Source: a virus
IMG/VR virus record: IMGVR_UViG_3300042566_001188
Coordinates: 1 to 37,789 of that record
Direction: 5' to 3' (one strand)
DNA length: 37,789 bases
The position numbers and the translations under genes are program-made. The notes beneath the pieces are model-generated. The model made no database searches. It was not told where the DNA came from and worked only from the letters and a program-made list of their open reading frames with translations. How positions within the stretch are numbered: the first letter of the stretch is position 1; each line of letters opens with the position of its first letter. Of this stretch, positions 21,647-36,804 are shown piece after piece.

Positions 21647-21660
21647 TATTGGACCTAATG

Positions 21661-22395: not shown

Positions 22396-22422
22396 ACATT
22401 ACCCCTTTTACCTACACTAAAC

Positions 22423-22431
22423 AATATACCA
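22423..22431 (-). promoter_or_regulatory. Extended -10 promoter at the head of the accessory island
   Basis: TGGTATATT on the minus strand lies 27 nt before the ATG and upstream of an AAAGGGG ribosome site, so this transcript has a normal short leader. Confidence 0.5.
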
Positions 22432-22463
22432 CAAATATTTTTTATTATTTTAAATATTGTTTT

Positions 22464-23225
22464 TTAGAATGGACCGAAATATGGACCAAACGATGGTGGG
22501 AAGAATGGTGGAGCAAAGGATGGTGGGAAGAATGGTGGAGCAAAGAACGGTGGGAAGAACGGTGGGAAGAACGGTGGGAAGAACGGTGGGAAGAATGGTG
22601 GGAAGAATGGTGGAGTAGTTGTTATGCTATTTGATGCAGCTGAAGTTCCAGAGTTTCCATTAGCATTAGTAGCATAAACTGTGTAAGTTTGTGAAGTTCC
22701 ACCTTCTTGAGTAACAGCTACTGTTGTTGTTGATCCATTAACTGTTGCACCTTTACCATCAGAAGAAGCCCAGGTATATCCAGTTATAGTGCTTCCACCA
22801 GTTGCTGGTGCGACCCATGATACGTTATCTTGGTTGACCTGTGTAGTTACTGTTGGAGCTGCAGGAGTTGCTGGAACAGTAGTTGCTGTAATAGCACTAG
22901 ACGCACTAGAGGCATCCGAAGTTCCAATTCCGTTTGTTGCTGTTGCTGTAAAAGTATAAGAAGTGTTAGATTGTAGCCCTGTTACTGTTAATGGTGACGA
23001 TGCTCCAGTTGCTGTAAAGCTTCCAGGAGATGAGGTAACTGTAAATGATGTAATCGGTGAACCGTTTGCGCCACCTGCTGTAAACGATACAATTGCTGAA
23101 CCGTTATTAAATGCACGAGATGTTCCAACATTTGTTGCAGATACGCTTGTTGGAGGATTAGGTTTTCCTGAACCCTGAAAACCAAGACCTCTTACACCAG
23201 CTCCTCTACCACCAATAATAGGCAT
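22464..23225 (-). CDS. Fibronectin type III protein with PPFF-repeat tail
   Basis: Two FN3 domains (about residues 24-116 and 120-204; typical stretches SPLTVTGLQSNTSYTFTATA and TSQTYTVYATNANG) are followed by a 49-residue tail built from six consecutive PPFF units and then variants (APPFFPPSF) ending in GPYFGPF. FN3 domains in phage tail proteins usually assist surface binding. The proline/phenylalanine tail is unusual: hydrophobic, probably extended, and possibly a multimerisation or anchoring element. A ribosome site (AAGGGGG) overlaps the stop of the upstream fibre gene. The protein shares its MPII N terminus and tail with the Hint protein at 31.3-32.2 kb. Confidence 0.75.
   Translation of the reverse strand: MPIIGGRGAGVRGLGFQGSGKPNPPTSVSATNVGTSRAFNNGSAIVSFTAGGANGSPITSFTVTSSPGSFTATGASSPLTVTGLQSNTSYTFTATATNGIGTSDASSASSAITATTVPATPAAPTVTTQVNQDNVSWVAPATGGSTITGYTWASSDGKGATVNGSTTTVAVTQEGGTSQTYTVYATNANGNSGTSAASNSITTTPPFFPPFFPPFFPPFFPPFFPPFFAPPFFPPSFAPPFFPPSFGPYFGPF
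22494..22614 (-). repeat. 12-bp coding tandem repeat (PPFF units)
   Basis: On the plus strand the unit GGTGGGAAGAAC/T repeats in direct tandem, with variants GGTGGAGCAAAG. Read on the minus strand each unit encodes Pro-Pro-Phe-Phe. Near-identical units suggest expansion and contraction by slippage or recombination. Confidence 0.85.
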
Positions 23226-23238
23226 TTATTATTCCCCC

Positions 23239-24675
23239 TTATGCAAACTTTGTCTGTGATCCAAATGCTGTAAAGGCAGCATTGCCTGTTTTTACTATAG
23301 TATATGAATAAATGTCTATGCTGTTTGCATTTCCTGCAGATGGAGCACTTCCATTTTGCCATTTTGGAGTTACAGAAGAACCATCAATTTGGAATCCTGT
23401 TTGATAGTATGGAGTTGCACCATTTGTAACAAAAAATACGACTGTAATAGAATCATTTGTAGCAAGGGCATCATTAAGTGTTGTTCCTGAATTTCCACGA
23501 ATATTTAATGTCCAGTTAGCGGTTGCATTTGAAGTGTAATATAGGATACCGCTTGTTATTGTATCTAAAGCAATTGTTCCAGTTGCTGCAGTTGCAGATA
23601 CTGATAAACGCTCTTCTGGTCCTGTAAGTATTGGATTTGCTAATACAGCATTTGTTAATGTTGGAGCAGTTCCAAAAACTAGTGATCCAGATCCTGTTTC
23701 ATCAGTTATTGCTGAAATAAGGTTTGCTGATGATGGAGTTCCAAGGAATGTGGCAACTCCTGTTCCAAATATATCTGTTCCATCAATCTTTAATGTTTTA
23801 CCTGAAGCAAGGTTAATGTGCTCTGATGAAGTCCATGAGTCTGTAGCGTCTACCCAGTTAAAGGTTTTATCAGTTGCACCCTTTAATGTGATACCGCCAC
23901 CATCTGCAGTTGTATCTGTAGGTGATGTTGTATCTCCAAGAACAATATTTTTATCTTCAATAACTAGGTTAGTTGAATTAAGATTAGTAGTTGTTCCATT
24001 GACTGTTAAATCTCCAGAAAGAGTTAGGCTTGTTCCAGATACAGCGCCAGTGAAGGTTGCTCCTGAAAGGTTTGCTTTAAGATCAAGGGCTGTTTGAGTT
24101 GCTGTTGAGACTGGCTTATTAACATCAGTTGTATTGTCAACATTTGCAAGACCAACATCAGTTTTTGTAATTCCAGTTGGGGTATTAATTACTGGTGAAG
24201 TTAAAGTTTTATTTGTAAGGGTTTCAGTTCCAGCAAGTGAAACTACATCAGCATCAGAAATTGCGGTGTTTAGTTCAGCAAGAGTTGATGTAACTGTGTT
24301 TGAGCCAAGTGATATTGACTTGTTTGAAAGTGTAGTTGTTGATGATGCTGTTACTGTAATATCAGATGTTAGAGCTACTGTGCCTGTTGCATCTGGAAAA
24401 GTAATTGTGCGATCTGCGGTAGGATCTGTAATAGCAAGGGTTGTTTCAAAATCGTTTGCTGTTGCACCTTCAAAAGTGATGCTTGAACCAAAAGCAGGGT
24501 TTACTATAGAGTTAATATCACTAAAATAGTCTAGGCTTGCCCAGTGATTTGTTCCATCACCAATTTTAAATTTATTTGTGTCTGATTCCCAGCCCATTTC
24601 ACCAGCATTTAATACTGGGTTAGCAGAGGTCCACTGAGAGGCGGTTCCTCTTCGCTGTTGCATTCTTGTTGCCAT
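23239..24675 (-). CDS. Tail fibre with Mtd-type N-terminal domain
   Basis: The N terminus (RRGTASQWTSANPVLNAGEM, then KFKIGDGTNHW) matches the small domain at the start of major tropism determinant and many tail fibre proteins. Residues about 70-330 are fibre repeats with recurring LTNKTLTSP and ADRTITFPDATGTVAL segments, which form elongated trimeric shafts. The last 130 residues form a globular tip (ATANWTLNIRGNSGTTLND). It is part of a run of fibre genes. A ribosome site (AGAAGGAG) precedes the ATG. Receptor binding at the tail tip is inferred. Confidence 0.8.
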   Translation of the reverse strand: MATRMQQRRGTASQWTSANPVLNAGEMGWESDTNKFKIGDGTNHWASLDYFSDINSIVNPAFGSSITFEGATANDFETTLAITDPTADRTITFPDATGTVALTSDITVTASSTTTLSNKSISLGSNTVTSTLAELNTAISDADVVSLAGTETLTNKTLTSPVINTPTGITKTDVGLANVDNTTDVNKPVSTATQTALDLKANLSGATFTGAVSGTSLTLSGDLTVNGTTTNLNSTNLVIEDKNIVLGDTTSPTDTTADGGGITLKGATDKTFNWVDATDSWTSSEHINLASGKTLKIDGTDIFGTGVATFLGTPSSANLISAITDETGSGSLVFGTAPTLTNAVLANPILTGPEERLSVSATAATGTIALDTITSGILYYTSNATANWTLNIRGNSGTTLNDALATNDSITVVFFVTNGATPYYQTGFQIDGSSVTPKWQNGSAPSAGNANSIDIYSYTIVKTGNAAFTAFGSQTKFA

Positions 24676-24704
24676 TTAGAACTCCTTCTGTATCCCCTGG
24701 TTAT

Positions 24705-24713
24705 ATTATATCA
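24705..24713 (-). promoter_or_regulatory. Extended -10 promoter of the tail fibre gene
   Basis: TGATATAAT on the minus strand lies about 30 nt before the fibre ATG, upstream of an AGAAGGAG ribosome site and just before the preceding gene's end. Confidence 0.6.
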
Positions 24714-24718
24714 GATAA

Positions 24719-25171
24719 TTAATTAAAATTATCAGTTGCTACTCCGCCATCATATGTTGCCTCAAAGACTGAAGTGTTGTATAGTCCAGCACTTACAAGA
24801 ACTCCTGGTTCATTGTATGCACCACCACTAATAAATGTGCTAACAACTAGCCCACTTCCGTCAATTGAAGTATCGTGTATATGGTCTTGTAGTATTTCTG
24901 CATCTTCAAGGGTAGCAATTGCAACCCATTGACCATTATAGTAAATATGAGCACGTTCTGTTAAGGTGTCAAACCATAAATTTCCATTTACTGGAGATTC
25001 TGGTTGTGTTGTTCCAATTGTTGGTGATCCAACAGCTGTATCTACATATAGTTTTGTTGCTGCATGTGTATTTTCAGTAGGAGTGGCAACTGTAACAGTT
25101 CCTCCAAAAGTTCCGCCATCGGCTACTGCAATGCCGTGCTTTACTCTAAAGTCTTTATTAACTGTTGCCAC
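24719..25171 (-). CDS. Small tail fibre-associated protein
   Basis: The 150-residue protein begins MATVNKDFRVKHGIAV, almost the same as the start of the upstream 636-residue fibre, so both probably attach to the same virion site. It then has ATKLYVDTAVG and NGNLWFDTLTERAHIYYNGQ, segments common in phage fibre proteins. It starts with GTG after a good ribosome site (AAGAGGT). It may be a short adaptor or a decayed fibre; the ends look intact, so I favour a functional short protein. Confidence 0.65.
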   Translation of the reverse strand: MATVNKDFRVKHGIAVADGGTFGGTVTVATPTENTHAATKLYVDTAVGSPTIGTTQPESPVNGNLWFDTLTERAHIYYNGQWVAIATLEDAEILQDHIHDTSIDGSGLVVSTFISGGAYNEPGVLVSAGLYNTSVFEATYDGGVATDNFN

Positions 25172-25188
25172 AATCTACCTCTTTCTAA

Positions 25189-27099
25189 TTATGCTTCGAT
25201 ATAAACTTTGTTAACTTTAACAACAGTATCTGATGCTGCACCAGTTACCTGAAGAAGAACGTTTCCACCGCTGTAAACAGCATCGGTTGTTCCTAATTGG
25301 GTATTGCTAATTACATCTGCATACTCTGTTAAGTAAACGTTATTTGATCCATCTACAGTAACTAACACTTCAATTACTTCAATGTCAGTTCCCTTTTTCA
25401 TTTGAACAATATACTTTGCAGATGAATAAGTGCTTGCTGACCATGTGTCAATTGTTGTTGCTGTAACTCCAGCAGTTGCTGTAGCAGTTCCAAGAAGAGC
25501 ATCTGTTAGTGTTACAGACCCTACGGTTACACCAGTAAATGTTGGTGTTGCTGTTGAGTGAATGTCTTGTGGTAAAGAGAGTGTTGTTGCACCATTTACA
25601 TCTAAAGCAGTTGTTGATATTTGGTTTGCTGTTCCACTAATTGAAACCACACCACTATTTGTAACTGCGTCGCCAGTAATAGTAATACCAGTTCCAGCGG
25701 TAACGTTTAGTGTGTTTCCTGTCTTAGAAAGACCATCGCCTGCAACTACTTGTCCAAGACCAGTAAACTGGGTAAATGTAAGGGCTGTAGTTCCAACTGT
25801 AATTGCGCCATCGTTAGTTAACACATAACCTTGATCAGCGTTAACAGTTCCTTCTTCTACGAATACCGCAAAGTTTGAAGTAAGTTCTGCGCCTGTATCT
25901 GCATCAGTAGAGCGATCTGGGGCACCAGATACTTTAACTACATAAATACCGTTTTGTGAACCAGTTGATTGATTCTTAACAAGAACACGATCTCCAGTTG
26001 CAAGAGTTACTCCATCAAGAGTATCTCCATTTTCTAGATCAGAAGCAAGTGTTACGTTAGCAGTTGTTGCTGCACGAACTGATGCTTTCCAGTCAATACC
26101 TTGTGCTGCTGAATCTACATAAGACTTTGTTGCTGCATCTGTTGCATCAGTTGGTGTTCCAAGACCTGTGATCTTGTTTGTTCCCATTGCAATTGCACCA
26201 GTCATAGTGCCACCAGCAAGTGCTAGTCTTGTGTCTACATCTGCAGTAAATGCTACTGTGCCAGTTTCATCTTTGAAAGTGATAGTGCGATCAGCTGTTG
26301 GGTCAGTTACTGTAAGAGTTGTTTCAAAATCATTTGCTGTAGTTCCTTCAAGAACAATGCTTGAATCGCTAAGGGTTAAACCAGAAACGATTGGGCTTGT
26401 AATTGTCTTGTTTGTAAGGGTTTCTATCTTTGATGCTGTTGACTTATCATCTAGTTGTGTCTGGATTGCAGATGTTACGCCATCTACATAATTAAGCTCT
26501 GTTGTAGAAAGAGTTGCACCATCAAGGATATTAAGTTCTGTTGATGTTGCTAAAAGATCTACGTTTTCATTAATCTTTGGTGTAGTTAATGTTTTATTTG
26601 TAAGTGTTTCGCTTCCAGCAAGTGTAGCAAAATCAGCATCTGAAAGAGCAGTATTAAACTCTGCAAGAGTTCCTGTAATTGTATTTGTAGTTAGTGAAAC
26701 TGATTTATTTGTTAATGTATCAGTTGTATCTTTAAGAACTACAGTTCCTGTTGCATTAGGAAGTGTAATTGTGCGATCTCCTGTTGGATCTGTTACCTCA
26801 AGAGTTGTTTCGTAATCATTTGCTGTAGCACCTTCAAAAACAATGCTTGAACCGAACTCACCAACTGCTTGTGGGGCTGCCCACTTGATACCATTGGTTG
26901 CTGAATCGTCTGCTGTAAGTATATAGTTATTTGTTCCAACTGCAAGACGAGTTACTGCATCTGCACCAGAGGCTACTAGCAAATCACCTTTTGCATCTAC
27001 TAATGCTTCTGTTAATATATCGTGTGTGTTAACGGTCGCAGTTGATCCTTCAACTATCAGTCCCGCTTTTACTCTAAAATCTTTTACTACGGTTGCCAT
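25189..27099 (-). CDS. Long tail fibre protein
   Basis: The 636-residue protein opens with the anchor MATVVKDFRVKAGLIVEG. It continues with many fibre repeats: LTNKSVSLTTNTITGTLAEF, DRTITLPNATGTVVL, LTNKTLTTPKI and LTNKTITSPIV. A central TGAIAMGTNKITGLGTPTDA segment followed by ATKSYVDSAAQG is a classic phage fibre motif. The C-terminal 90 residues (SSAKYIVQMKKGTDIEVIEV) form a separate domain similar to that of the next gene's product. AAGGAG precedes the ATG. Receptor recognition is the likely role. DNA segments shared with the 23.2-24.7 kb gene show common origin. Confidence 0.8.
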   Translation of the reverse strand: MATVVKDFRVKAGLIVEGSTATVNTHDILTEALVDAKGDLLVASGADAVTRLAVGTNNYILTADDSATNGIKWAAPQAVGEFGSSIVFEGATANDYETTLEVTDPTGDRTITLPNATGTVVLKDTTDTLTNKSVSLTTNTITGTLAEFNTALSDADFATLAGSETLTNKTLTTPKINENVDLLATSTELNILDGATLSTTELNYVDGVTSAIQTQLDDKSTASKIETLTNKTITSPIVSGLTLSDSSIVLEGTTANDFETTLTVTDPTADRTITFKDETGTVAFTADVDTRLALAGGTMTGAIAMGTNKITGLGTPTDATDAATKSYVDSAAQGIDWKASVRAATTANVTLASDLENGDTLDGVTLATGDRVLVKNQSTGSQNGIYVVKVSGAPDRSTDADTGAELTSNFAVFVEEGTVNADQGYVLTNDGAITVGTTALTFTQFTGLGQVVAGDGLSKTGNTLNVTAGTGITITGDAVTNSGVVSISGTANQISTTALDVNGATTLSLPQDIHSTATPTFTGVTVGSVTLTDALLGTATATAGVTATTIDTWSASTYSSAKYIVQMKKGTDIEVIEVLVTVDGSNNVYLTEYADVISNTQLGTTDAVYSGGNVLLQVTGAASDTVVKVNKVYIEA

Positions 27100-27114
27100 C
27101 TTATATCTCCTTGG

Positions 27115-27561
27115 TTAGGCCTTTAATCCCATACGCATATAGCGTAGAGTTATAGGTGTAATTCCCCCTACTGGGACAACAGTTAGTGAAACTGTATCTC
27201 CAGCCCGTGAAACAGAGATGGTGCCAATATTCCCATCGTTATCTATTGTTCCATACTGACTAACGCTAACGTCTGTTGCGTCAACCAGAATATCCATTGA
27301 TGTAGTGAAATACTTGTTTCCACCACCAGCTACATATTTAAGAGAAATCACATACTTCATTGATCTAAACTCAGTTGCAGAAAAATTATCAAATACTGTT
27401 GAATTTTCAATCCCATTGATTGTTGATTCATTATTACCATCTGATCCAAGATCGGTAGACCTAGCGGAAGCACTATCAATTAAATCTTCATAGTTTTCCT
27501 GTGTTGGGCGGTCTCCTGTTTGAAAAAGAGCCTTTACGTTTGCTGTTGATATTTTAGCCAT
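27115..27561 (-). CDS. Tail fibre-associated protein
   Basis: The 148 residues start AKISTANVKALFQTGDRPTQ, an N terminus typical of small phage structural proteins that attach to fibres or baseplates. The C-terminal half (FRSMKYVISLKYVAGGGNKY) resembles the SAKYIVQMKKGTD domain that ends the long fibre next door, suggesting a shared tip fold. Its ATG lies 6 nt after a TATAAT hexamer, so it probably heads a leaderless transcript that continues into the long fibre gene. Confidence 0.55.
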   Translation of the reverse strand: MAKISTANVKALFQTGDRPTQENYEDLIDSASARSTDLGSDGNNESTINGIENSTVFDNFSATEFRSMKYVISLKYVAGGGNKYFTTSMDILVDATDVSVSQYGTIDNDGNIGTISVSRAGDTVSLTVVPVGGITPITLRYMRMGLKA

Positions 27562-27567
27562 ACTGGA

Positions 27568-27576
27568 ATTATATCA
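27568..27576 (-). promoter_or_regulatory. Extended -10 promoter, leaderless (fibre operon)
   Basis: TGATATAAT on the minus strand ends 6 nt before the ATG of the 148-residue gene. Confidence 0.66.
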
Positions 27577-27582
27577 TATATT

Positions 27583-27804
27583 TTAAAGTATATAGTTAGA
27601 GAAACCGATAATTTGTAATGGAATTGCTGGTATATTACCAATAGCGCTTGGTATTTGAATTGCAGTAAATCTAATTCTAAATGGTAAAACGGAGTTTATC
27701 TTTACCCCCGATTTTGGCTCAGTAATTTGGGTATTTAAAAAAGATACTCTGTCAATTACTTTAGTAAAAACTGGTGGGGCACTATTTATAGTAACCGTTG
27801 CCAT
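27583..27804 (-). CDS. Small structural protein, function unknown
   Basis: The 73-residue product is beta-rich, with alternating hydrophobic residues (VLPFRIRFTAIQIPSAIG), and has no membrane span of convincing length. Its ATG overlaps the stop of the upstream BppU-like gene (TAATG), so it is translated with it. A virion accessory role is inferred only from position. Confidence 0.5.
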   Translation of the reverse strand: MATVTINSAPPVFTKVIDRVSFLNTQITEPKSGVKINSVLPFRIRFTAIQIPSAIGNIPAIPLQIIGFSNYIL

Positions 27805-28217
27805 TAGTTTGTAACATCCTCAAGGAGAGTAATCTTCCCTTGAGCAACTGTCCATACTAATGTGTCTTGTGGAAGACGTAGTTCAATATCAAATATATCG
27901 TTTGTTCTTAAAAGTGCTGATTGTGCTGCAGTTAAATTAACCTTAAACTCTCCATCTGCGTCATTTTCATCTTGTGCTGGAGTAAGTGTAAAAATTAAAG
28001 TTGCTGTGTCTGTAATTATTTGAGGGTTAACAGGATTTGTAGGTCTTTTAAATTCTGCCTCTATAGTCCAATCAGGAATATTTAAAGGTAGCTTATTATC
28101 ATCTGTTAAATAAATTCTAAAAGAAGCTGTGTCTCCTTTTACGATTGTCCAATTTACAAATGGTGGTGCTTCTCCAATATCATATGTAGATGCGCCTTGT
28201 CCTCTAAATGTTGCCAT
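27804..28217 (-). CDS. BppU-like N-terminal domain protein (baseplate/fibre adaptor)
   Basis: The 137 residues contain a beta-sandwich opening with NWTIVKGDTASFRIYLTDDN, the K/R-G-D-x-A/T pattern seen in BppU-type baseplate adaptor domains. Two further genes in this region (33.7 and 34.9 kb) encode the same domain type. It ends with a strand containing GKITLLEDV, a counterpart of GSITVTDDI in the 33.7 kb protein. Its start overlaps the stop of the preceding gene (TAATG). It probably helps fix fibres to the tail tip. Confidence 0.55.
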   Translation of the reverse strand: MATFRGQGASTYDIGEAPPFVNWTIVKGDTASFRIYLTDDNKLPLNIPDWTIEAEFKRPTNPVNPQIITDTATLIFTLTPAQDENDADGEFKVNLTAAQSALLRTNDIFDIELRLPQDTLVWTVAQGKITLLEDVTN

Positions 28218-28750
28218 TACAACAAACCTTCCTTAAGTGCTCCCCAAGTTGCTGCCAATGATTTTGTAGGTGCAACAATAATGATACCAGTTGTTGAATC
28301 AGATTTTCCAACAATACCCACTGAAGCAGCGTTTGATGTTGGCTTTGTAGCGGTTAATCCTCCGCCAGCTGCAACGTATAACACATTTCCAGCGGCATAT
28401 GAGTTAGTATTTATATTGCTAAAAATTCCAGAAATAACAATTACTCCGTCAGAATTATTTCCAATGTTGGTTTCTGCCAGTCCTACTACGGGAAATGTTG
28501 ATATGGTTGATGCATTTGCTTTTGCAATTGTTGGCTTAGTTGAATACCCAGAAATATAAACTGGATCACCTTTTGTAATTGATGCACCACTGACATTTCT
28601 AATTTCTAAAGTATTATTTTTGACTCCACCGATTGTTGGCAATATTGCATCAATTGCTTCAGCCAATGACTGAATATCTTCGTGAACATTAACAGGATCT
28701 GTTAATATTGGATACGGTAAATCGTAAGTAGTTGTTTCTCCTGAAGCCAT
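28217..28750 (-). CDS. Tail fibre/baseplate protein with short fibre start
   Basis: The 177 residues begin with an N-terminal region found in phage fibre proteins (YDLPYPILTDPVNVHEDIQS, then a helix). A Gly-rich beta domain follows (VSGASITKGDPVYISG, then VGLAETNIGNNSDG) of a kind common in phage decoration and fibre proteins. The ATG lies 6 nt after TATAAT, so it heads a leaderless operon running through the BppU-like and small genes. The role is assigned by similarity of style and neighbours. Confidence 0.6.
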   Translation of the reverse strand: MASGETTTYDLPYPILTDPVNVHEDIQSLAEAIDAILPTIGGVKNNTLEIRNVSGASITKGDPVYISGYSTKPTIAKANASTISTFPVVGLAETNIGNNSDGVIVISGIFSNINTNSYAAGNVLYVAAGGGLTATKPTSNAASVGIVGKSDSTTGIIIVAPTKSLAATWGALKEGLL

Positions 28751-28756
28751 TTATAC

Positions 28757-28765
28757 ATTATACCA
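28757..28765 (-). promoter_or_regulatory. Extended -10 promoter, leaderless (baseplate operon)
   Basis: TGGTATAAT on the minus strand ends 6 nt before the ATG of the 177-residue gene. It lies in the 140-nt spacer facing the endolysin promoter. Confidence 0.68.
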
Positions 28766-28811
28766 CCTGTCAAATATTGTTTTATTAATTTTATAAAAAT
28801 GTTATCAAAAC

Positions 28812-28841
28812 TTGCTTTTTACCTAGAATTCATGTTATACT
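28812..28841 (+). promoter_or_regulatory. Promoter of the endolysin gene
   Basis: TTGCTT and TATACT are separated by 18 nt on the plus strand, and TG precedes the -10 hexamer by one base. The predicted start lies about 45 nt before the ATG. Confidence 0.55.
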
Positions 28842-28849
28842 TATGTTAT

Positions 28850-28865
28850 GCTACCAACTGGTAGC
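28850..28865 (+). promoter_or_regulatory. Hairpin in the endolysin leader
   Basis: GCTACC-AACT-GGTAGC is a perfect inverted repeat at or near the predicted transcript start, ahead of the ribosome site TAGGAGGT at about 28876-28883. It could stabilise the mRNA or serve as an operator that delays lysis gene expression. Confidence 0.5.
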
Positions 28866-28890
28866 AATTGTTCTCTAGGAGGTTATTATT

Positions 28891-29460
28891 ATGAGAAGAG
28901 ACAAGAAAGCCTGGATTGGAATCCTATCTTTAGTCGGATTTATTGCACCGATAAGTAATTCTGCTAATGCTATAAGCGTTACAGTTGACAATAATTTATT
29001 GAGTAAAACGTCAGTTAAATCTGTTGATCCCGCCCCCAAAGGGGCATTTTTGGTTTCTAAGGTTAAAAATCAAGTTACCCTTAAAAAATACCAAAACGCA
29101 CACAGTTTAACAGACCACGAACTACTTGAGCTACTAAAAGCTGTAGGGTTTACTGGAACAGGTTTAAAGACTGCCTGGGCTGTAGCTAAGGCAGAGTCAA
29201 ACGGCAGACCTTTTGCATTTAATGGAAATGAGAATACTGGAGACAACTCTTACGGGGTATTCCAAATAAATATGATTGGAAATCTAGGTCCTGATCGTAG
29301 AGATAAATTTGACTTAGATGTTAATGCTGAACTATTTAGCCCTGTCAAAAATGCAGAAATTGTATTTTATATGACTAAGGGTGGAACAGATTGGAAAGCC
29401 TGGAAATATGCACAAACCTCATCTGTTCAAAAATGGTTAAGTAAATTTCCTAAATCTTAA
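28891..29460 (+). CDS. Secreted lysozyme-like endolysin (SLT fold)
   Basis: Residues 1-27 form a Sec signal peptide (basic MRRDKK, hydrophobic core, ANA cleavage site). Residues 72-189 are a lysozyme/transglycosylase-like domain with the probable catalytic Glu102 (VAKAESNGRP), the substrate-cleft motif GDNSYGVFQINMIG at 117-130, and an Ala-x-x-x-x-Tyr helix (NAEIVFYMTKGG). It would cleave peptidoglycan after export, so lysis need not wait for a large-pore holin. A very strong ribosome site precedes the ATG. It is the only plus-strand gene in the fibre region and has its own promoter, allowing separate timing. A tail-borne or entry role is the alternative. Confidence 0.8.
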   Translation: MRRDKKAWIGILSLVGFIAPISNSANAISVTVDNNLLSKTSVKSVDPAPKGAFLVSKVKNQVTLKKYQNAHSLTDHELLELLKAVGFTGTGLKTAWAVAKAESNGRPFAFNGNENTGDNSYGVFQINMIGNLGPDRRDKFDLDVNAELFSPVKNAEIVFYMTKGGTDWKAWKYAQTSSVQKWLSKFPKS

Positions 29461-29478
29461 TTATTATAAAATATAAAA

Positions 29479-30201
29479 CTATTTTATATGATCAAATAAA
29501 TTAGACGTTTCATAAACTTCACAGTCTATGGAGCTTATGGTTTTTATTTTTTCTTTTTCTTTATTAGTTAAGGTTTGATAAATTTCTTTAGATTGGATAT
29601 TGCTATACTCTTCAAAATTGTAGGCCCTGTTTGTTATTTTTTTATTGGGAATTTTTAAATCAACCAGTATTTTTTTTTGAATCTTTTTAATATTGTTTTC
29701 TGATAGGTCTTCTGGTTTTATAAATAATGACAATTGATTTATTTTATTTAAAACATTATTTTTTGTAATTATCTCATTATTTAAAAATTGCTTAAACCCA
29801 TTTTCATCTTTTATTACGGTAGGTAGAACTAAGTGTTTTGACTGATAGTTTTTTGCACCGTCTTCATTTTGCTCTAACCACTCAAACAAAGTATTTTTAT
29901 CTATACTGTTATTTCTAAAAACTATTTGATTTCTATTTACCGTTTGGCTATGTGTATACAGGCTTACCATATGCTTACAAGGATCTCTAAAAATAGAAGA
30001 TACATAGGTTGAAGAATTAATTTCTTTTTTCCATTGAGAGTGATCGTAATAGTTGATTGGACCATCCATCTGTAAACTATTTAGTTCTTTTATTTTTGCT
30101 TCAAGTAAAATATTTTTTAATGGAAATAGCACATTATAAAAAAAAAGTCTTCCGCCAGTTTTTGGAATATGTAAAAAATAAAAAGAATTAAATCTGCTCA
30201 C
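29479..30201 (-). CDS. Sulfotransferase family protein
   Basis: FLHIPKTGGRLFF near the N terminus is the 5'-phosphosulfate-binding loop, and SSIFRDPCKHMVSLYTH is the 3'-phosphate-binding segment for the donor PAPS. This places the 240-residue protein among carbohydrate sulfotransferases of the heparan 2-O-sulfotransferase-like type. The rest is poorly conserved and Lys/Asn-rich. It starts with GTG 3 nt after the stop of the IMP dehydrogenase-like gene, so it is translated with it. The acceptor is unknown; a glycan on the virion or host surface is a reasonable guess. Its very AT-rich, Lys/Asn-heavy composition differs from the flanking fibre genes and suggests insertion as a cassette. Confidence 0.72.
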   Translation of the reverse strand: MSRFNSFYFLHIPKTGGRLFFYNVLFPLKNILLEAKIKELNSLQMDGPINYYDHSQWKKEINSSTYVSSIFRDPCKHMVSLYTHSQTVNRNQIVFRNNSIDKNTLFEWLEQNEDGAKNYQSKHLVLPTVIKDENGFKQFLNNEIITKNNVLNKINQLSLFIKPEDLSENNIKKIQKKILVDLKIPNKKITNRAYNFEEYSNIQSKEIYQTLTNKEKEKIKTISSIDCEVYETSNLFDHIK

Positions 30202-30204
30202 TTT

Positions 30205-31263
30205 TTAAATTCTACTTTGAGACTCTTGTAGTGATTGTGGGGAAGCTTTTATAAATTTACAATCATTTTTAAAAGAATTAATATCCTTTGATCCACAATA
30301 TGAAAATCCACTTCTAATATTTTCAGACATTTGCCTTAAGGTGTTTTGGACACTACCTTTACTTTCTAAATACCCAGATACGCCCTCGATATGTCGCAAT
30401 CCGCCTTCGTCTGTGTGGTTGCCAAGATTATCCACTTTTATACTTTCAGAAGCTAAACCACGAAATAAAAACTTTCCATCTTTCTTGCCATCACATTCTT
30501 CATGTCCTGCAAACATATAGCCCATCATAGCTACAGAAGCTCCTGCAGCTAAAGCTTTTAATATATCTCCAGTTTGTTTAATTCCACTATCAGCAACAAT
30601 GCCGTTAACTTTATCATTTTTTATATTTTTATATATATCCATGATTGATCCTAGGACTGGAACTCCAAATCCAGTAACAACTCTAGTGGTGCAAGCAGAA
30701 CCTCCCCCAATACCAACTCTTACAGAGTCTGCACCAGCACTCATTAAATCTGAGTATGCATCATAAGAAGAAACGCTGCCAATCATTATATGTATATCAT
30801 CTGGAACAATAGATCTTAATTTCTTTACAGCATTTATTGAATATGTTGTGTGGCCAAAGGCTGTATCAATAGAAAGTGTTCGTATACTATTCTTTAATAC
30901 TTTATCAATAAAATTAAAGTCTTCTGCTTCTTCAACACTTATTGCAAATGCCACCCTATTTGTTTTTTTTACTTCTTCTTTTAATAAATTAAACTGGATA
31001 AACCTTTGTTCGTTGTCTTGATATCTTTGAACAAATGCCATTCCTCCAAAATTTACAATTTCTTCTATCATTGATGTGCTATTTATAAATTCCATTGGGG
31101 CGGTCATAATTGGAACACCTAAATATATCCAAGCACTTGGATTGTTTGGATTTCCTAATATTGAAGATAAAGAAACATCTGATCTGCTTTCTACATTAGA
31201 ATACTTAGGGACAAGCAATATGTCATCAAAGCAAAGGTCTGTTGTTGAGTTGTCAAATTCCAT
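30205..31263 (-). CDS. IMP dehydrogenase / GMP reductase family enzyme
   Basis: The 352-residue protein shows the family start FDDILLVPKYSNVESRSDV and MTAPMEF. It has the catalytic loop GGGSACTTRVVTGFGVPVL with Cys191, the phosphate-binding GIVADSGIKQTGDILKAL, and the C-terminal EGVSGYLESKGSV ... RSGFSYCGS. There is no CBS domain pair, so it has GMP reductase length, while the EG-x-x-G-x-x-x-x-K-G segment resembles IMP dehydrogenase. It either makes XMP from IMP or converts GMP to IMP, adjusting purine pools. A GGGGGT ribosome site precedes the ATG. It is coupled to the sulfotransferase gene and is placed far from nrdJ. Confidence 0.85.
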   Translation of the reverse strand: MEFDNSTTDLCFDDILLVPKYSNVESRSDVSLSSILGNPNNPSAWIYLGVPIMTAPMEFINSTSMIEEIVNFGGMAFVQRYQDNEQRFIQFNLLKEEVKKTNRVAFAISVEEAEDFNFIDKVLKNSIRTLSIDTAFGHTTYSINAVKKLRSIVPDDIHIMIGSVSSYDAYSDLMSAGADSVRVGIGGGSACTTRVVTGFGVPVLGSIMDIYKNIKNDKVNGIVADSGIKQTGDILKALAAGASVAMMGYMFAGHEECDGKKDGKFLFRGLASESIKVDNLGNHTDEGGLRHIEGVSGYLESKGSVQNTLRQMSENIRSGFSYCGSKDINSFKNDCKFIKASPQSLQESQSRI

Positions 31264-31294
31264 AAATAACCCCCATGTTAAATATTGTTTTTTA

Positions 31295-32182
31295 TTAAGA
31301 AACTACTAAATAGTTTCCAACAATAAACCATAGATGAGGTGTTGTTCTAATTTCATGAACATTTCCAGCATCAAGATTCTCAATTTTTTCTACAGGCATA
31401 TATGATACATTTCCAGAATCTGTATCAATTCTTACTAGCATATCTCCAATAGAAATTTCACCCGTGTTCTTCCACTCAATTCCATCTTTTGTTTTGATAT
31501 AAATTGGCTGGTTTGGAGAGAACATATCTTCAATATCATTAAACTTAATCAATGGCTTTTGATCTATATTGTTTGTTGTAACTTCAACTTCAATAAACTC
31601 AACAGTATCTGATATTGTCATATTTTTTAAGGTATGGGTGTTGGTTAAATTTGATGCAGCCACTGTTAATAGCCTATCTCCAACCCTAATATCTTCTGCG
31701 TTAACGTATCCAGCTGTTGTAAGTATTTTTGACTTGCTAGAAATACACTTAACGCTAAACTTTGGTGGGAAGAATGGATCTGGTCCTGGTGTTGGTGGGA
31801 AGGATGGTGGGAAGAATGGTGGAGCAAAGAATGGTGGGAAGAATGGTGGGGCAACTGGAGTAACAGAATTAGAGGCTGAAGAAGGAATAGAAGTAGCAAT
31901 AACGCTATTATCAGAATTTCTCGTTCTTGCTGTTACTGTAAATGTATAAGCTGTTCCATTGGTTAATCCTGTAACAGATATTGGAGATGTTGCAGAAGAA
32001 GCTGTAACTGATCCTGGAGAAGATAAAGCTACATATATATTATTAGTTGATGGTTTTCCTAAATATGAAGGATTTGTAAAAGGAACACTTGCACTAGCAT
32101 TATCAGCACTTGCAGTTCCTATTGTTGGTGCGCTTGGTTGTCGTCCATCAGACGATGCTGACACCCCTGGAATTATTGGCAT
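31295..32182 (-). CDS. FN3 / PPFF-repeat / degenerate Hint domain protein
   Basis: The 295-residue protein has an FN3 domain (about 17-108), a short PPFF-type repeat tail (111-140), then a Hint (hedgehog/intein) domain from Cys146 (VKCISSKSKILTTAGYVNAE, then IRVGDRLL) to the C terminus. The nucleophile position Cys146 is kept. The B-block TxxH His is Gln225 (FSPNQPIYIK), and the usual terminal His-Asn is replaced by Val-Ser at the very end (GNYLVVS). Splicing is therefore impossible and N-terminal cleavage doubtful. The ATG overlaps the TAA of the upstream fibre gene. A codon 30 nt upstream is less likely as start. Confidence 0.7.
   Translation of the reverse strand: MPIIPGVSASSDGRQPSAPTIGTASADNASASVPFTNPSYLGKPSTNNIYVALSSPGSVTASSATSPISVTGLTNGTAYTFTVTARTRNSDNSVIATSIPSSASNSVTPVAPPFFPPFFAPPFFPPSFPPTPGPDPFFPPKFSVKCISSKSKILTTAGYVNAEDIRVGDRLLTVAASNLTNTHTLKNMTISDTVEFIEVEVTTNNIDQKPLIKFNDIEDMFSPNQPIYIKTKDGIEWKNTGEISIGDMLVRIDTDSGNVSYMPVEKIENLDAGNVHEIRTTPHLWFIVGNYLVVS
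31763..31852 (-). repeat. Second copy of the 12-bp PPFF coding repeat
   Basis: The same GGTGGGAAGAAT / GGTGGAGCAAAG units as at 22.5 kb occur here, in fewer and less regular copies. The shared DNA could allow recombination between the two loci 9 kb apart. Confidence 0.8.
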
Positions 32183-33051
32183 TATGCAATCAAATCTCCA
32201 ACAGCTACCCAAGTATTTGCTGCACGTTTAATTATTACAGCTGACGACCATTGTGCTCTTAACTTTAAACCTGGGGTTCCATTTATAGTCGTTGTTCCTG
32301 AAGTAGTTGCTGCAATTGTGATTTGCCCTGTTCCGGTTTGAATAATGTTTAGTTGTGATCCAATTGGAAAATCAATAGCAGCATCTGTATTAATAAAAAA
32401 TGTTCCAGCTGTAGAACTATTGTTTAACTCTAGCCATTTATCTTTATCTGTTCCAATTGCAGTATATGCATTTGATGTAAAGGTTGGTGTTGAAATTGTT
32501 AATGTTGATGAAGCAAAATCTATTCCTGCCGTTGAATTTCCTACTCTAATTTTTTTATTTACAGTATCCCAAGCAATTCTTCCATCTGTTGAAGAAGCAG
32601 ATGTTGAAAGAGTTAATGCTGGAGTTGTTATAGTTGGACTTGTTAATGTTTTGTTAGTCAGGGTTACGGTGTTAGTTAATGTTACTCCAGCGTCTACCCA
32701 TTCTAAACCTGTAGCAGTAGCGCTATTTGTAGTTAAAAATTTTCCATTTCCAACAGATGAAGAATTTAATATAAGGGGGGTATTATCTGCAGATGCACTA
32801 AGAAGGTCGCCTTTAGCATTAAAATCAGCTTTTGCAACTGCATCGGAAATATCAAAATTATCTATCTGGTCTTGAAGACTGTTAATTGTATATGCAATAG
32901 ATGGGTTTATTAATTCTGTTGGATCTGTCTCAGCGGTATCAAATGTATATGATCCATAGTGGTAGGCACGTAGTGCTGCTTGAATATCAGCAGCGTCTGT
33001 ATACCCTGGAATTTTTGTTGGAACTAAGTTGCCAATACTTTCAACTGCCAT
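32182..33051 (-). CDS. Tail fibre protein
   Basis: The 289-residue protein begins VESIGNLVPTKIPGYTDAAD, a start common to phage fibre proteins. It carries the repeat LTNKTLTSPTITTPALTLS also seen in the 23-27 kb fibres, and ends in a beta-helical tip (GTGQITIAATTSGTTTINGT, then KLRAQWSSAVIIKRAANTW). A ribosome site (AAAGAGGT) precedes the ATG. Translation is coupled to the Hint protein downstream, which may assemble onto this fibre. Confidence 0.75.
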   Translation of the reverse strand: MAVESIGNLVPTKIPGYTDAADIQAALRAYHYGSYTFDTAETDPTELINPSIAYTINSLQDQIDNFDISDAVAKADFNAKGDLLSASADNTPLILNSSSVGNGKFLTTNSATATGLEWVDAGVTLTNTVTLTNKTLTSPTITTPALTLSTSASSTDGRIAWDTVNKKIRVGNSTAGIDFASSTLTISTPTFTSNAYTAIGTDKDKWLELNNSSTAGTFFINTDAAIDFPIGSQLNIIQTGTGQITIAATTSGTTTINGTPGLKLRAQWSSAVIIKRAANTWVAVGDLIA

Positions 33052-33068
33052 AAATCACCTCTTTAGAA

Positions 33069-33077
33069 ATTATATCA
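33069..33077 (-). promoter_or_regulatory. Extended -10 promoter of fibre/Hint operon
   Basis: TGATATAAT on the minus strand, about 20 nt before the fibre ATG and just upstream of the AAAGAGGT ribosome site. Confidence 0.6.
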
Positions 33078-33089
33078 TAAGTATACATA

Positions 33090-33680
33090 CTAAGACTCCT
33101 GACTTGCCAATATCGATATAAAAACGTGAACTAAAACCTCATCATTTAAAAGTGCCCAGTCTCCATATGGACCAGAATCTATATCGGTTCTGTGTTCTAC
33201 TGCCTTTAAATTAATTTCTAAATCAGTTCCAGCAAGTGCTGGGATAGTCATAGAAGATGCTATTGGATTGTCATGAGCAATACTATATTGGATACTAAAG
33301 TTATCGGCAGATAAAGGAGTTCCAGTGGTATCAATAATATCTGAAATTGGTATTAATATTGTTGCTGCCCCAGAAGCAAAAACAGTCAAAAAATTTTCTG
33401 AATAAATGGTTGGATTAACAGATAATAATGGAATCCAAGTGTTTCCTCCAGGTCGGGATACATACTGATACATATATGCATACTCATCTCCTGGTGAAGC
33501 ATTTATGTATAAATCATTTAGTATTGGGGTTTGTCCAATTTGAATATCGTTTGGATTTCCAATACCCGCAAAAACCTGACTGCCACGAGTTCCTGTTGGC
33601 CCAATGTCAACCAAAACCTCTACGGTATCTGGTGGTCCTAAAACAGTAACATCATCGTTATTTAATAATACATCTGGCAT
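33090..33680 (-). CDS. Tail-associated protein with short collagen-like start
   Basis: The 196 residues include VDIGPTGTRGSQVFAGIGNP, a short Gly-Pro-Thr/Gly stretch followed by QTPILNDLYINASPGDEY, a combination typical of phage fibre proteins. The second half is a beta-sandwich (IPISDIIDTTGTPLSADNF, then IEINLKAVEHRTD-like strands). Its start overlaps the stop of the upstream BppU-like gene (TAATG). It probably forms part of the adsorption apparatus. Confidence 0.55.
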   Translation of the reverse strand: MPDVLLNNDDVTVLGPPDTVEVLVDIGPTGTRGSQVFAGIGNPNDIQIGQTPILNDLYINASPGDEYAYMYQYVSRPGGNTWIPLLSVNPTIYSENFLTVFASGAATILIPISDIIDTTGTPLSADNFSIQYSIAHDNPIASSMTIPALAGTDLEINLKAVEHRTDIDSGPYGDWALLNDEVLVHVFISILASQES

Positions 33681-34033
33681 TACACAGCACCAGTAATATC
33701 ATCGGTAACAGTTATAGATCCAGTTAAAATAGTTAGAATAACGTCTGGGGTTGGTATAACATCAGTAATTTGAACATCATAAACGTATGTGCCTGCAGCT
33801 AAAGTTCTTCCAACGGATGGTGTTATTGTGCAGGTAATAATATTTGTTGTAGTATTTACTGTCGCTGCTGCTACATACTGAGTTCCTGTTGATCCACGCC
33901 TATTTGCAATAGTAAATGTTGCACTATAGTTTGTTAAATTATAATCAGATCCGTTTGCTGTTTTGGGACGAATTACAAACTCCGCAGTATCACCACGGTA
34001 GTAGTTAAAATTATATGTTCCTGGAAATGCCAT
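33680..34033 (-). CDS. BppU-like N-terminal domain protein
   Basis: The 117 residues are almost entirely one domain: YNFNYYRGDTAEFVIRPKTA, with the R-G-D-T/S-A pattern shared with the 27.8 and 34.9 kb proteins, and a final strand GSITVTDDITG. Such domains attach receptor-binding modules to the baseplate. The ATG follows a strong AGGAGGA ribosome site and a TGGTATAAT promoter. It heads a two-gene unit with the next fibre-associated protein. Confidence 0.6.
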   Translation of the reverse strand: MAFPGTYNFNYYRGDTAEFVIRPKTANGSDYNLTNYSATFTIANRRGSTGTQYVAAATVNTTTNIITCTITPSVGRTLAAGTYVYDVQITDVIPTPDVILTILTGSITVTDDITGAV

Positions 34034-34048
34034 TATTCCTCCTATAAT

Positions 34049-34057
34049 ATTATACCA
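34049..34057 (-). promoter_or_regulatory. Extended -10 promoter of BppU-like gene
   Basis: TGGTATAAT on the minus strand lies 15 nt before the ATG, overlapping the region just before the end of the collagen-like gene, and is followed by AGGAGGA. Confidence 0.62.
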
Positions 34058-34783
34058 TTAGGAAACTGATATATATATTCCTTTTAGTATAACAGAGCCC
34101 TCATTATCAGACCTAACTTGTAGTATACCACCAAAAGCCTTAACGTCTTTATTTTGTAAAAAAATGGTTTGGCACAAAGAAAAATCATAAGAATATTGAT
34201 ATTTTAAATTTCCTAAATATCCAGTTACAGAGTTTTCTTCATTTACGGAAAATGTTCTAACCCATATTTCTGTATTGTTGGCATAAGTCTCTACCTCTAA
34301 ATCATATCTAATATCAACCTTTGCACCTATCTGTAGTGCTCTAAAATTAATTTTTTTTGCTATTTCGTTTAAAAGTGATACAGAACTGTTTGGAATATAT
34401 TTTTCAATACTTTGGTCTTGGTCTATTTCTAAAAAAACAGATACCCAGCCATCATCGCCTCTTTCTGGACCAATTTTTGTTTTATTGTCATTTGCATTTT
34501 TATAATAGGCCCACCCTGGGTATTGTCCAGATGGGCTATCGTAGCCTTGGCCACCCTTTCCTGGATCTCCTTTTGGTCCAATTGGCCCTTGCTTTCCTAT
34601 ATCGCCTTTATCACCTTTATCACCTTTGGGGCCCTGAATTCCCTGTGGCCCAACAGGTCCTATATCCCCACGTTCACCCTGAATTCCTGGGACAGCAACA
34701 TATTCTGTATTTACTACTTCTTTTACAGTATCTGAATATTTTTTCTTTTTTGAAACATCTGGGAAGTCCATGCTTTGGGCCAT
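34058..34783 (-). CDS. Collagen-like fibre protein
   Basis: Residues 33-78 are about fifteen Gly-x-y triplets (for example GPVGPQGIQGPKGDKGDKG), which should form a collagen triple helix. Pro is mostly in the x position, and Lys occupies the y position at least four times (GPK, GDK, GDK, GPK). The basic N-terminal part (VSKKKKYSDTVKEVV) may anchor it; the C-terminal 150 residues form a beta-rich head (NNTEIWVRTFSVNEENSVTG). Phage collagen-like proteins are tail fibres. It follows a tiny gene by 7 nt without a good ribosome site, so reinitiation is likely. It is a candidate substrate for the window's hydroxylase-like enzymes. Confidence 0.82.
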   Translation of the reverse strand: MAQSMDFPDVSKKKKYSDTVKEVVNTEYVAVPGIQGERGDIGPVGPQGIQGPKGDKGDKGDIGKQGPIGPKGDPGKGGQGYDSPSGQYPGWAYYKNANDNKTKIGPERGDDGWVSVFLEIDQDQSIEKYIPNSSVSLLNEIAKKINFRALQIGAKVDIRYDLEVETYANNTEIWVRTFSVNEENSVTGYLGNLKYQYSYDFSLCQTIFLQNKDVKAFGGILQVRSDNEGSVILKGIYISVS

Positions 34784-34790
34784 GGAAAAA

Positions 34791-34877
34791 TTATTTCTTT
34801 ACTTTAAATATTTTTTTACCAATTTTAATAATTGGTGGAAGATTATCCTTTTTCGCTGTTACTTTTACTATTGGCAT
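34791..34877 (-). CDS. 28-residue basic peptide
   Basis: An open frame beginning with an ATG that overlaps the stop of the BppU-like gene (TAATG) encodes a very basic peptide starting MPIVKVTAKKDN and ending KIGKKIFKVKK. It ends 7 nt before the ATG of the collagen-like gene, whose own ribosome site is poor, so its translation may serve to carry ribosomes forward. About ten of 28 residues are Lys, suggesting contact with an acidic protein or nucleic acid if it is functional in itself. Confidence 0.5.
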   Translation of the reverse strand: MPIVKVTAKKDNLPPIIKIGKKIFKVKK

Positions 34878-35278
34878 TATAGACCTGGAGTTACATTACC
34901 TAATACACATATAGTTCCAATTACTGGAGTCCATACAGTGTCTGCATTCTGACCGCTACCGCCTTCAATTACTACCTGTAAGTCAAATTGTAGCTCAGCA
35001 ACAACTGAACGGTATTTAGAGCTACCCCAATTTTCTGTAATACTGGCTGGGGCTAATATTTCAACATACCCATCATCGCTGGTGGTAATTAATTCATCTA
35101 AAATATCTCCAGTAGAATCATATGCTGTAGATCTATATGTCCAGTCTGAAGTATCATATGGTGTGGTTTCATCATCTTCAAAAAATTCTACTTTTAGGGT
35201 TGCGCTATCCCCACGAACAACAGACCATTTAATGTTTGCTGGCGAAGCGCCATGTTTTTCTATTGTAGGGGCACACAT
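34877..35278 (-). CDS. BppU-like N-terminal domain protein
   Basis: The 133-residue protein carries NIKWSVVRGDSATLKVEFFE, the third copy of the R-G-D-x-A baseplate-adaptor-type domain, and ends PVIGTICVLGNVTPGL. Its ATG lies 8 nt after a TATAAT hexamer with no ribosome site, so it is probably leaderless. It heads an operon with the 28-residue peptide and the collagen-like fibre, consistent with linking that fibre to the tail. Confidence 0.6.
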   Translation of the reverse strand: MCAPTIEKHGASPANIKWSVVRGDSATLKVEFFEDDETTPYDTSDWTYRSTAYDSTGDILDELITTSDDGYVEILAPASITENWGSSKYRSVVAELQFDLQVVIEGGSGQNADTVWTPVIGTICVLGNVTPGL

Positions 35279-35286
35279 AATAATTG

Positions 35287-35295
35287 ATTATACCA
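35287..35295 (-). promoter_or_regulatory. Extended -10 promoter, near-leaderless (collagen operon)
   Basis: TGGTATAAT on the minus strand ends 8 nt before the ATG and directly follows a terminator's T-run. Confidence 0.65.
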
Positions 35296-35296
35296 T

Positions 35297-35347
35297 AAAA
35301 AAGGACTATTCCCAAAGCGCAGTGGGGTGGGGGTAGCAACCTTGGGA
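35297..35347 (-). terminator. Terminator-like hairpin upstream of collagen operon
   Basis: On the minus strand TCCCAAGG pairs with CTTTGGGA (one G-U) around a C-rich loop, followed after 7 nt by a run of six T. The long loop and the gap before the T-run lower confidence. Confidence 0.5.
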
Positions 35348-35379
35348 AGAGTCTAACTAGATTATATCTTATATTTTTA

Positions 35380-35528
35380 ATAAAATCCAGAATATATACT
35401 TTTATAACAAAAAGTTATAATTATAATTAGACAATAATATTTAAAAAGTATAAAATCCAGAGTATTTTTGAATTGTTATCAAATCGTTATAAAGTCCAGG
35501 GTATTTGAAGTTGAAAGCCAGGAATCTA
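35380..35528 (+). repeat. Iteron-like imperfect direct repeats (ATAAARTCCAGRRTAT)
   Basis: Three 16-nt copies start at 35380, 35450 and 35489 (AATAAAATCCAGAATA-, ATAAAATCCAGAGTAT, ATAAAGTCCAGGGTAT), with a weaker fourth at 35513. Spacing shrinks from about 70 to 39 to 24 nt. The core TCCAGGGTAT recurs exactly on the minus strand at 37042-37051, beside another promoter, which favours a protein-binding site. Confidence 0.6.
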
Positions 35529-35611
35529 TGGTGTATACTTAAAATATATAAAGAAAAGAATATACTGTAAATAAGTTTTTAAGATATAAAGTATATTATA
35601 TATATAGAAAA

Positions 35612-35827
35612 TTATTTTTTATTATGATCTTTTAAATGTTCGATTAATAGATCGAATATCTTGTCAGTTTTTTCTTCAAGGCGCACAACGGAATCTTTTA
35701 AGCTGGATCCAGAATTGGGTTTAAGTTCGTTTAAATAATGTTTTACGAGCCAACGAATTCCACCTGCAACTATAGTTATAATTGTAAGTATTGTTAATGT
35801 TAACGCAGCCCAGTCTTGTGCAGTCAT
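35612..35827 (-). CDS. Small membrane protein, holin candidate
   Basis: The 71-residue product has one N-terminal transmembrane segment (AALTLTILTIITIVAGGIRW) followed by a charged, helical tail (SLKDSVVRLEEKTDKIFDLL), the layout of XhlA-like and other single-span phage lysis proteins. The start chosen is the ATG 7 nt after TATAAT; extending to an ATG 87 nt upstream would run through the promoter. It is far from the endolysin gene, so a lysis role is only a candidate. A membrane-anchored coiled-coil function is the alternative. Confidence 0.5.
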   Translation of the reverse strand: MTAQDWAALTLTILTIITIVAGGIRWLVKHYLNELKPNSGSSLKDSVVRLEEKTDKIFDLLIEHLKDHNKK

Positions 35828-36064: not shown

Positions 36065-36259
36065 ATGTCAGATAGTGTTAAGCCTTGGGATTTAATTAAT
36101 GGAGATAAGACGCCAGAAGAGATTTCTATATCCCGCCTCGAAATTTGTAAAACATGTGAATGGTTTAGACCTAAAATACAAACATGTAAAAAGTGTGGAT
36201 GTTTTATGAAATTAAAAACTACTTTAGAGAAAGCTCGGTGTCCAATAGGAAAATGGTAA
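36065..36259 (+). CDS. Small zinc-ribbon protein (DUF6171-like)
   Basis: The 64-residue protein carries Cys28, Cys31, Cys41, Cys44, Cys46 and Cys59 in the arrangement CKTCEWF ... CKKCGCFMKLK ... RCPIGKW. I recall this as a phage zinc-ribbon family (DUF6171). The N-terminal 20 residues look flexible. Its stop overlaps the start of the next gene, an oxygenase, so the two are made together; the zinc ribbon might bring the enzyme to its target. The ATG is chosen because it lies 6 nt after the -10 hexamer. Confidence 0.7.
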   Translation: MSDSVKPWDLINGDKTPEEISISRLEICKTCEWFRPKIQTCKKCGCFMKLKTTLEKARCPIGKW

Positions 36260-36804
36260 TTGAATCTGGTTATTTTGGAACGTCTTCAGATAAGATATTA
36301 GTAGTTGATAGTATTGCTACTAAAGAAGAGTTAGACATTATTGTCAATACCGCTGAAAATGTGGATATCTGGGATAATAAGCTAACGGGTGATATTTGGA
36401 ACAATAGGGTGACCTATCACGAAAAGTTTTTAAAAAATTCCCCTGAAACATACCACCTTGTTTCTGAAATTCAAAATAGATTTTCAATAAAAATTTCTGA
36501 GTTTTATAATGTTAAAGTTAAGCGCCCTATTCCATTTATTGCCAGATGGCTTGTTGGAAATTTTCAAATACCGCATTATGATAAATACTTTTTTCCAAAT
36601 TACGATATAGGTTCTATCATTTATTTAAATGATGAATATTTAGGTGGAGAGGTTTTCTTTCCCCAACATGATATAGAGAAAAGGCCAATAGCAGGAAACG
36701 CTCTTGCTTTTCCAGGAGATGAACACTATATGCATGGTGTTAAAGAAGTTACCAGTGGATGTAGATATACCATACCCGTTTTTTGGAATGTTATAGAAGA
36801 TTAG
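36253..36804 (+). CDS. 2-oxoglutarate/Fe(II)-dependent dioxygenase
   Basis: The iron ligands His108 and Asp110 (QIPHYDKYF) and His161 (YMHGVKEV), with Arg171 for 2-oxoglutarate, are intact. LNDEYLGGEVFFPQHD and AFPGDEHY match the island enzymes, and it is closest to the 18.7-19.4 kb copy. The 183-residue length is near the minimum for the fold. Its ATG overlaps the end of the zinc-ribbon gene by 7 nt, so it is translated by coupling; a start 60 nt upstream would lie deep inside that gene. The separate location and strand suggest independent regulation from the main cluster. Confidence 0.84.
   Translation: MVIESGYFGTSSDKILVVDSIATKEELDIIVNTAENVDIWDNKLTGDIWNNRVTYHEKFLKNSPETYHLVSEIQNRFSIKISEFYNVKVKRPIPFIARWLVGNFQIPHYDKYFFPNYDIGSIIYLNDEYLGGEVFFPQHDIEKRPIAGNALAFPGDEHYMHGVKEVTSGCRYTIPVFWNVIED

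Follow-up and report, generated by a model that had tools for sequence, protein, structure and literature searches.

Known Hint domains and phage fibre proteins

In inteins, Cys1 forms a thioester by an N-S acyl shift with the assistance of a threonine and a histidine in block B and an aspartate at position F:4, and the terminal asparagine cuts the C-terminal junction (PMC4031507). Inteins without the block-B histidine or the penultimate histidine can still act (PMC7664689), and in a block-B histidine mutant of the DnaB intein the N-S shift was restored by bulky residues at position -1 (PMC6333167). Of these steps the Hog domain of hedgehog uses just the first, after which it hands the chain over to cholesterol, and BIL domains mostly cleave (PMC7664689, PMC7765530). 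BIL domains have been described in variable parts of non-conserved proteins; those of B type have the intein motifs minus the C-terminal one and undergo N-terminal cleavage (PMC7765530).

In the literature found, phage Hint domains occur as inteins of terminase, helicase or reductase genes. Searches for Hint together with phage tail, virion or fibronectin, in which few subscription journals were covered, returned only inteins in replication, packaging and metabolic genes, and reviews. The closest annotated architecture is found in jumbo phages, in the fibre genes gp112 of Erwinia phage Alexandra (YP_009803672.1) and BN7874_136 of Phage NCTB, the latter annotated as 'putative phage tail protein, contains intein domain'; no paper on the function of these fibre Hint domains was found in the literature searched. 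Among the Foldseek matches are predicted proteins from uncultured Caudovirales that carry the labels 'Fibronectin type III' and 'Hint domain containing protein', so proteins of this kind have already been met by automatic annotation, and a description of their function was likewise not found in the literature searched.

Layout of P0001

The window is a whole virus record of 37.8 kb (IMGVR_UViG_3300042566_001188) from a freshwater phage. Its genes include HK97-type portal and prohead-protease-like ones as well as a fibre and tail block. P0001 begins with a short N-terminal stretch, which is followed by the FN3 domain, the F/P-rich linker and, last, the Hint domain; the stop codon of the tail gene upstream overlaps the ATG of P0001 by one base. 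The features concerned are as follows.

32182..33051, minus strand: upstream tail protein gene (phrog_8780 minor tail protein, E=1e-12)
31295..32182, minus strand: P0001, FN3 - F/P-rich linker - Hint fibre protein, 295 aa (ATG at 32182, stop 31295-31297)
31859..32131, minus strand: FN3 domain, approximately residues 18-108 (Pfam fn3 residues 27-90, E=1e-3)
31748..31849, minus strand: PPFF-type low-complexity linker, residues 112-145 (from the sequence; low model confidence)
31298..31747, minus strand: Hint domain, residues 146-295, Cys146 to Ser295 (profile, model and structural alignment)
31745..31747, minus strand: codon TGT of Cys146, the Hint Cys1 and nucleophile (41/41 representatives; 55/56 in the control with the C-terminal half only)
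31538..31540, minus strand: Asn215, shortly before block B (invariant across the Hint family)
31508..31519, minus strand: block B, S222-P-N-Q225, where inteins have T-x-x-H (family alignment)
31352..31354, minus strand: block F:4, Glu277, which is Asp in the other 12 members of the clade without His-Asn (family alignment)
31298..31303, minus strand: Val294-Ser295 at the His-Asn position, with the stop directly after and no C-extein (from the sequence)
22464..23225, minus strand: P0002, a second FN3-PPFF protein of the window, without Hint (Pfam and sequence)

In the model of full-length P0001, the FN3 domain has beta strands within residues 25-104 (10-residue blocks mostly at pLDDT 71-94), the linker is mostly at pLDDT 53-55, and FN3 and Hint are two separate domains. 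A protein identical to P0001 is encoded on four further IMG/VR contigs; because all five records agree, a sequencing error was ruled out as the origin of the glutamine in block B and the terminal Val-Ser.

Evidence for the Hint fold

Compared alone with Pfam, the Hint part of P0001 matched PT-HINT (E=1e-4) and Hint_2 (E=1e-3), both under the Pfam cut-offs; the best match, PT-HINT (PF07591), reached 22.9 bits against a gathering score of 27.7. A profile of 28 family members matched, among solved structures, BIL 2lwy (E=9e-10), the KlbA intein (5e-8) and the PhoCDC21-1 intein (8e-8). The AlphaFold2 model of the Hint part has a pLDDT of 94.3 and a pTM of 0.87, and VIA-align matched it to inteins, Hog and BIL at Z 16-18 over ~130 residues with an rmsd of ~2 Å (MtuRecA intein Z 18.0, hedgehog 1at0 17.1, BIL 2lwy 16.7, NpuDnaB and SspDnaB inteins 17-18). 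The structural alignment starts with Cys146 on Cys1 (MtuRecA residue 1, Hog residue 258) and ends with Ser295 on the final intein residue (MtuRecA 440, SspDnaB 154); relative to inteins, Gln225 occupies the position of the block-B histidine and Val294-Ser295 that of His-Asn. By the fold of the predicted structure and by its nucleophile, the C-terminal domain of P0001 is a Hint domain. The first-pass annotation, made from the sequence, had described a Hint domain after FN3 and a PPFF linker at the C terminus of a fibre protein, with Cys146 as the retained nucleophile, glutamine for the block-B histidine, Val-Ser for the terminal His-Asn and no C-extein; Pfam, profile and the confident model bear this description out, and to it can be added that the block-B threonine is also replaced, by Ser222, and that F:4 is Glu277. 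Neither of the two outcomes that the annotation had named as refuting it, homologues without the cysteine or a confident model lacking a Hint fold, was observed.

Comparison with known systems

P0001 resembles class 1 inteins (MtuRecA, SspDnaB M86, PhoCDC21-1; Z 16-18) in fold, Cys1 and block order, but has no C-extein, terminal asparagine or homing endonuclease. Where a class 1 intein ends in Asn, Gln or Asp and the C-extein begins with Cys, Ser or Thr at +1, P0001 has Ser295 and then a stop codon, and in place of T-x-x-H its block B has S-P-N-Q, although a few active inteins are also without that histidine. A-type BIL domains require the C-terminal His-Asn, whereas P0001 has Val-Ser. BIL 2lwy, the nearest structure by sequence profile, keeps T-x-x-H and His-Asn, whereas the clade of P0001 has neither His-Asn nor a C-terminal flank. 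The C-terminal motif is lost in P0001 as in B-type BIL domains, but the block-B histidine is lost as well. Hog (1at0) is likewise a C-terminal Hint domain with Cys1 and without His-Asn; unlike P0001, which has Gln225 and ends with the Hint domain, it possesses the block-B histidine and a sterol-recognition region after Hint. The feature tests made on the sequence place the Hint domain of P0001 outside class 1 inteins, A-type BIL domains and Hog domains.

Pretoxin HINT domains of polymorphic toxins are similar to P0001 in that they place Hint on filamentous stalks (PMC3482391), but in P0001 no toxin domain lies downstream and Hint ends the protein, with the stop after residue 295. Alexandra gp112 and NCTB BN7874_136 share with P0001 a C-terminal or near-C-terminal Hint domain on a fibre protein encoded beside tail-fibre genes. 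They differ from it in having a collagen-like stalk instead of FN3-PPFF and in keeping T-x-x-H and His-Asn, followed by 8-10 residues, and their identity to members of the family described below is ~22-26%.

The best reading, with chances about even, is that the Hint domain of P0001 would be a Hog-like or B-type-BIL-like module in which the first step alone remains (N-S acyl shift followed by cleavage on the N-terminal side) and the C-terminal chemistry is lost.

A family of fibre-borne Hint domains

P0001 belongs to a family, not described before, in which a C-terminal Hint domain is attached to the F/P-linker fibre proteins of phages known from metagenomes. The family was collected by scans of IMG/VR, and the counts given here refer to 41 dereplicated members. 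The Hint domain is almost always at the C terminus of the protein, after an F/P-rich low-complexity linker of one of three flavours (PPFF, FAPPSF, GFTPF). Cys1 is present in 41/41, and block-B position 10 is Gln in 25/41, His in 10/41 and Glu in 6/41 (histidine replaced in 31/41), so the cysteine is conserved and the histidine is not, a pattern about which the first-pass annotation had asked; position 7 of block B is mostly Ser. No column other than Cys1 and Asn215 is fully invariant, and elsewhere in the Hint domain identity drops to ~25%. We know of no counterpart of Asn215 in intein catalysis and of no catalytic role for it. The terminal His-Asn is kept in 16/41 (~40%) and absent in 25/41.

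A maximum-likelihood tree was computed from the alignment minus block-B position 10 and the C-terminal columns; on it, the state changes number six for His-Asn versus other residues, seven for block-B position 10 and none for Cys1. This constancy of Cys1 while the other two positions switch repeatedly favours self-cleavage. The clade of the window has 13 representatives (support 100/99), all of which have [IV][AS] as their last two residues; F:4 is acidic in 13/13 (Asp in 12, Glu in the window only), and block B has His in 4/13 and Gln in 9/13, the window among the latter. The splicing residues that the first-pass annotation called lost are indeed lost, but not in P0001 alone: judged from this tree, the loss of His-Asn is a property of the whole clade, and the block-B histidine is missing in most of the family. 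With the second-half residues gone and Cys1 and an acidic F:4 kept, N-terminal self-cleavage would be the most likely activity of this clade.

Across the family, with kinship ignored, loss of His-Asn is associated with an acidic F:4 (Fisher p=0.025); the association is gone under tree-aware pairing and reflects one clade. Compensation of a non-His block B by a bulky residue at -1, which is Lys145 in P0001, was unsupported (21/31 versus 5/10, one-sided Fisher p=0.26), which counts against self-cleavage.

Since the initial pattern scans might favour an intact N-terminal region, two IMG/VR scans were made with the C-terminal 90 residues only, patterns that cannot select for Cys1. Of the distinct copies thus found that include the N-terminal region, 55/56 have Cys1, which again favours self-cleavage; the sole copy without it is a 120-aa linkerless Hint-like ORF, and the linker-borne Hint copy on the same contig retains Cys. 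In the family, the Cys1 codon occurs as both TGT and TGC. Small linkerless Hint-like ORFs were seen on three contigs (L163:6480-6941, the L147 ORF from 6230 and the L222 ORF from 3261), each downstream of a Hint-bearing fibre gene, and one of them is without Cys1.

Pairwise dN/dS of the Hint domain is 0.10-0.39 (10 pairs), and because this is purifying selection the domain is not a decaying intein. That P0001 carries the remnant of a former intein or polymorphic-toxin HINT in the course of being lost might be suggested by the absence of splicing residues and by PT-HINT as the top Pfam match. This is very improbable: the same architecture recurs across many divergent phages, neither a toxin domain after Hint nor an endonuclease domain is present, and the selection and conservation results largely refute it.

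A catalytically silent Hint domain, which would stay on the fibre as a compact tip or a knob for receptor binding and keep Cys146 for packing or another non-catalytic reason, is harder to dismiss and had been offered by the first-pass annotation. It would suit the absence from P0001 of both the block-B histidine and His-Asn, and invariance of Cys1 could reflect another role; Asn215 is equally invariant. The retention of Cys1 while the remaining domain diverges nonetheless weakens it, and one would expect a receptor-binding tip to vary most, yet dN/dS is low; on balance such a tip is possible but rather unlikely.

Genomic setting and relatives without Hint

Contigs L007-L010 align at 77-84% with parts of window 31796-35612. 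In them the P0001 orthologue ends directly after the linker, without Hint, and in L007 it has the same upstream neighbour; the alignment picks up again at window 21570-18718. The window has ~10.2 kb (21570-31796) where these relatives have ~1 kb, with FN3-PPFF genes at both ends, and the extra stretch holds the Hint part, an IMPDH-like gene, fibre genes and P0002. P0002 and the Hint-less gene of L007 match at their 3′ ends, and the PPFF-coding DNA of P0001 and P0002 is alike over 55 bp at 94.5%. Cassette exchange through repetitive PPFF-coding DNA is a plausible origin of the stretch. Contig L023 has Hint at the same site without the extra ~10.2 kb. Syntenic orthologues that end directly after the linker are in keeping with self-cleavage. 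Other FN3-linker proteins have Cys-rich tails or nothing after the F/P linker, as though the site were a variable tip, which would accord with the silent structural domain.

A search of a phage collection with the P0001 protein and a megablast search with the surrounding 9.8 kb gave no match. In bacterial and archaeal genomes the search gave a single match (L160), which looks like an ordinary intein within a helicase-like gene, so that a cellular source was not identified.

Among the other genes of the window, an IMP dehydrogenase/GMP reductase-like gene (30205-31263, minus strand) is directly downstream of P0001, a lysozyme-like gene (28891-29460, plus strand; SLT_3, E=9e-16) lies on the strand opposite to the fibre genes, and 12952-14985 (minus strand) encodes an adenosylcobalamin-dependent ribonucleotide reductase. 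Two genes encode 2OG-Fe(II) oxygenases (PF13640; 18718-19392, minus strand, and 36193-36804, plus strand), and collagen-like and proline-rich fibre proteins are also encoded; prolyl hydroxylation of the window's fibres by these oxygenases is possible. A possible oxygenase gene, judged by eye, follows the Hint-less gene of L007 at 4863-5609.

Proposed mechanism

Having lost its splicing parts yet kept Cys1, the Hint domain would probably be a tip that cuts itself in one step. As the model suggests, it would fold at the end of the F/P-rich linker; Cys146 would then convert the peptide bond after Lys145 to a thioester by an N-S acyl shift, and resolution of the thioester by water, a thiol or another nucleophile would free the FN3-linker fibre from Hint. 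The second half of the splicing reaction (cyclization of the terminal asparagine and ligation of the C-extein) is gone, as His-Asn is replaced and the ORF ends there. The mature fibre would finish with the aromatic linker, like the orthologues without Hint, and Hint would be a module used once, in the folding or assembly of the receptor-binding apparatus, comparable to a Hog domain without sterol recognition or a flankless B-type BIL domain. The confident fold, the purifying selection, the acidic F:4 throughout the clade and the precedents of activity in inteins without the block-B or penultimate histidine (PMC7664689, PMC6333167) are consistent with this mechanism. Against it, the block-B histidine, the strongest promoter of the first step, is missing and serine stands in for the block-B threonine.

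If the thioester were instead handed to an amine or hydroxyl of a virion protein or of the host surface, the FN3-linker fibre would become covalently fixed. The first-pass annotation had likewise suggested that the domain may cleave itself, form an ester or cross-link the adsorption apparatus. With the C-terminal chemistry lost, a thioester is the expected end state, Hog makes an ester by the same arrangement (PMC7664689, PMC7765530), and the gene neighbours of P0001 encode fibre and tail proteins. However, neither an acceptor nor a partner gene nor an extension resembling a sterol-recognition region was identified, and the acyl shift normally takes place inside the producing cell, long before host contact, so such coupling is unlikely for P0001. 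It is similarly doubtful that the family as a whole uses a thioester at the F/P-rich fibre tip, without C-terminal chemistry and block-B histidine, to couple fibres to a virion protein or host surface as a viral counterpart of hedgehog ester formation. In order of probability, N-terminal self-cleavage is the most likely activity, with roughly even chances, followed by the inert tip and then by covalent coupling.

Significance

The family is widespread. Its Hint domain is fixed at the fibre-tip position, and all fibre-borne copies examined have Cys1, whereas other catalytic residues have been lost repeatedly. If these domains are active, they would constitute a natural set of Hint domains that function without the block-B histidine and without the asparagine, and they would let receptor-binding proteins mature through a thioester, a step that would stand beside the S74 chaperone, to which it is unrelated.
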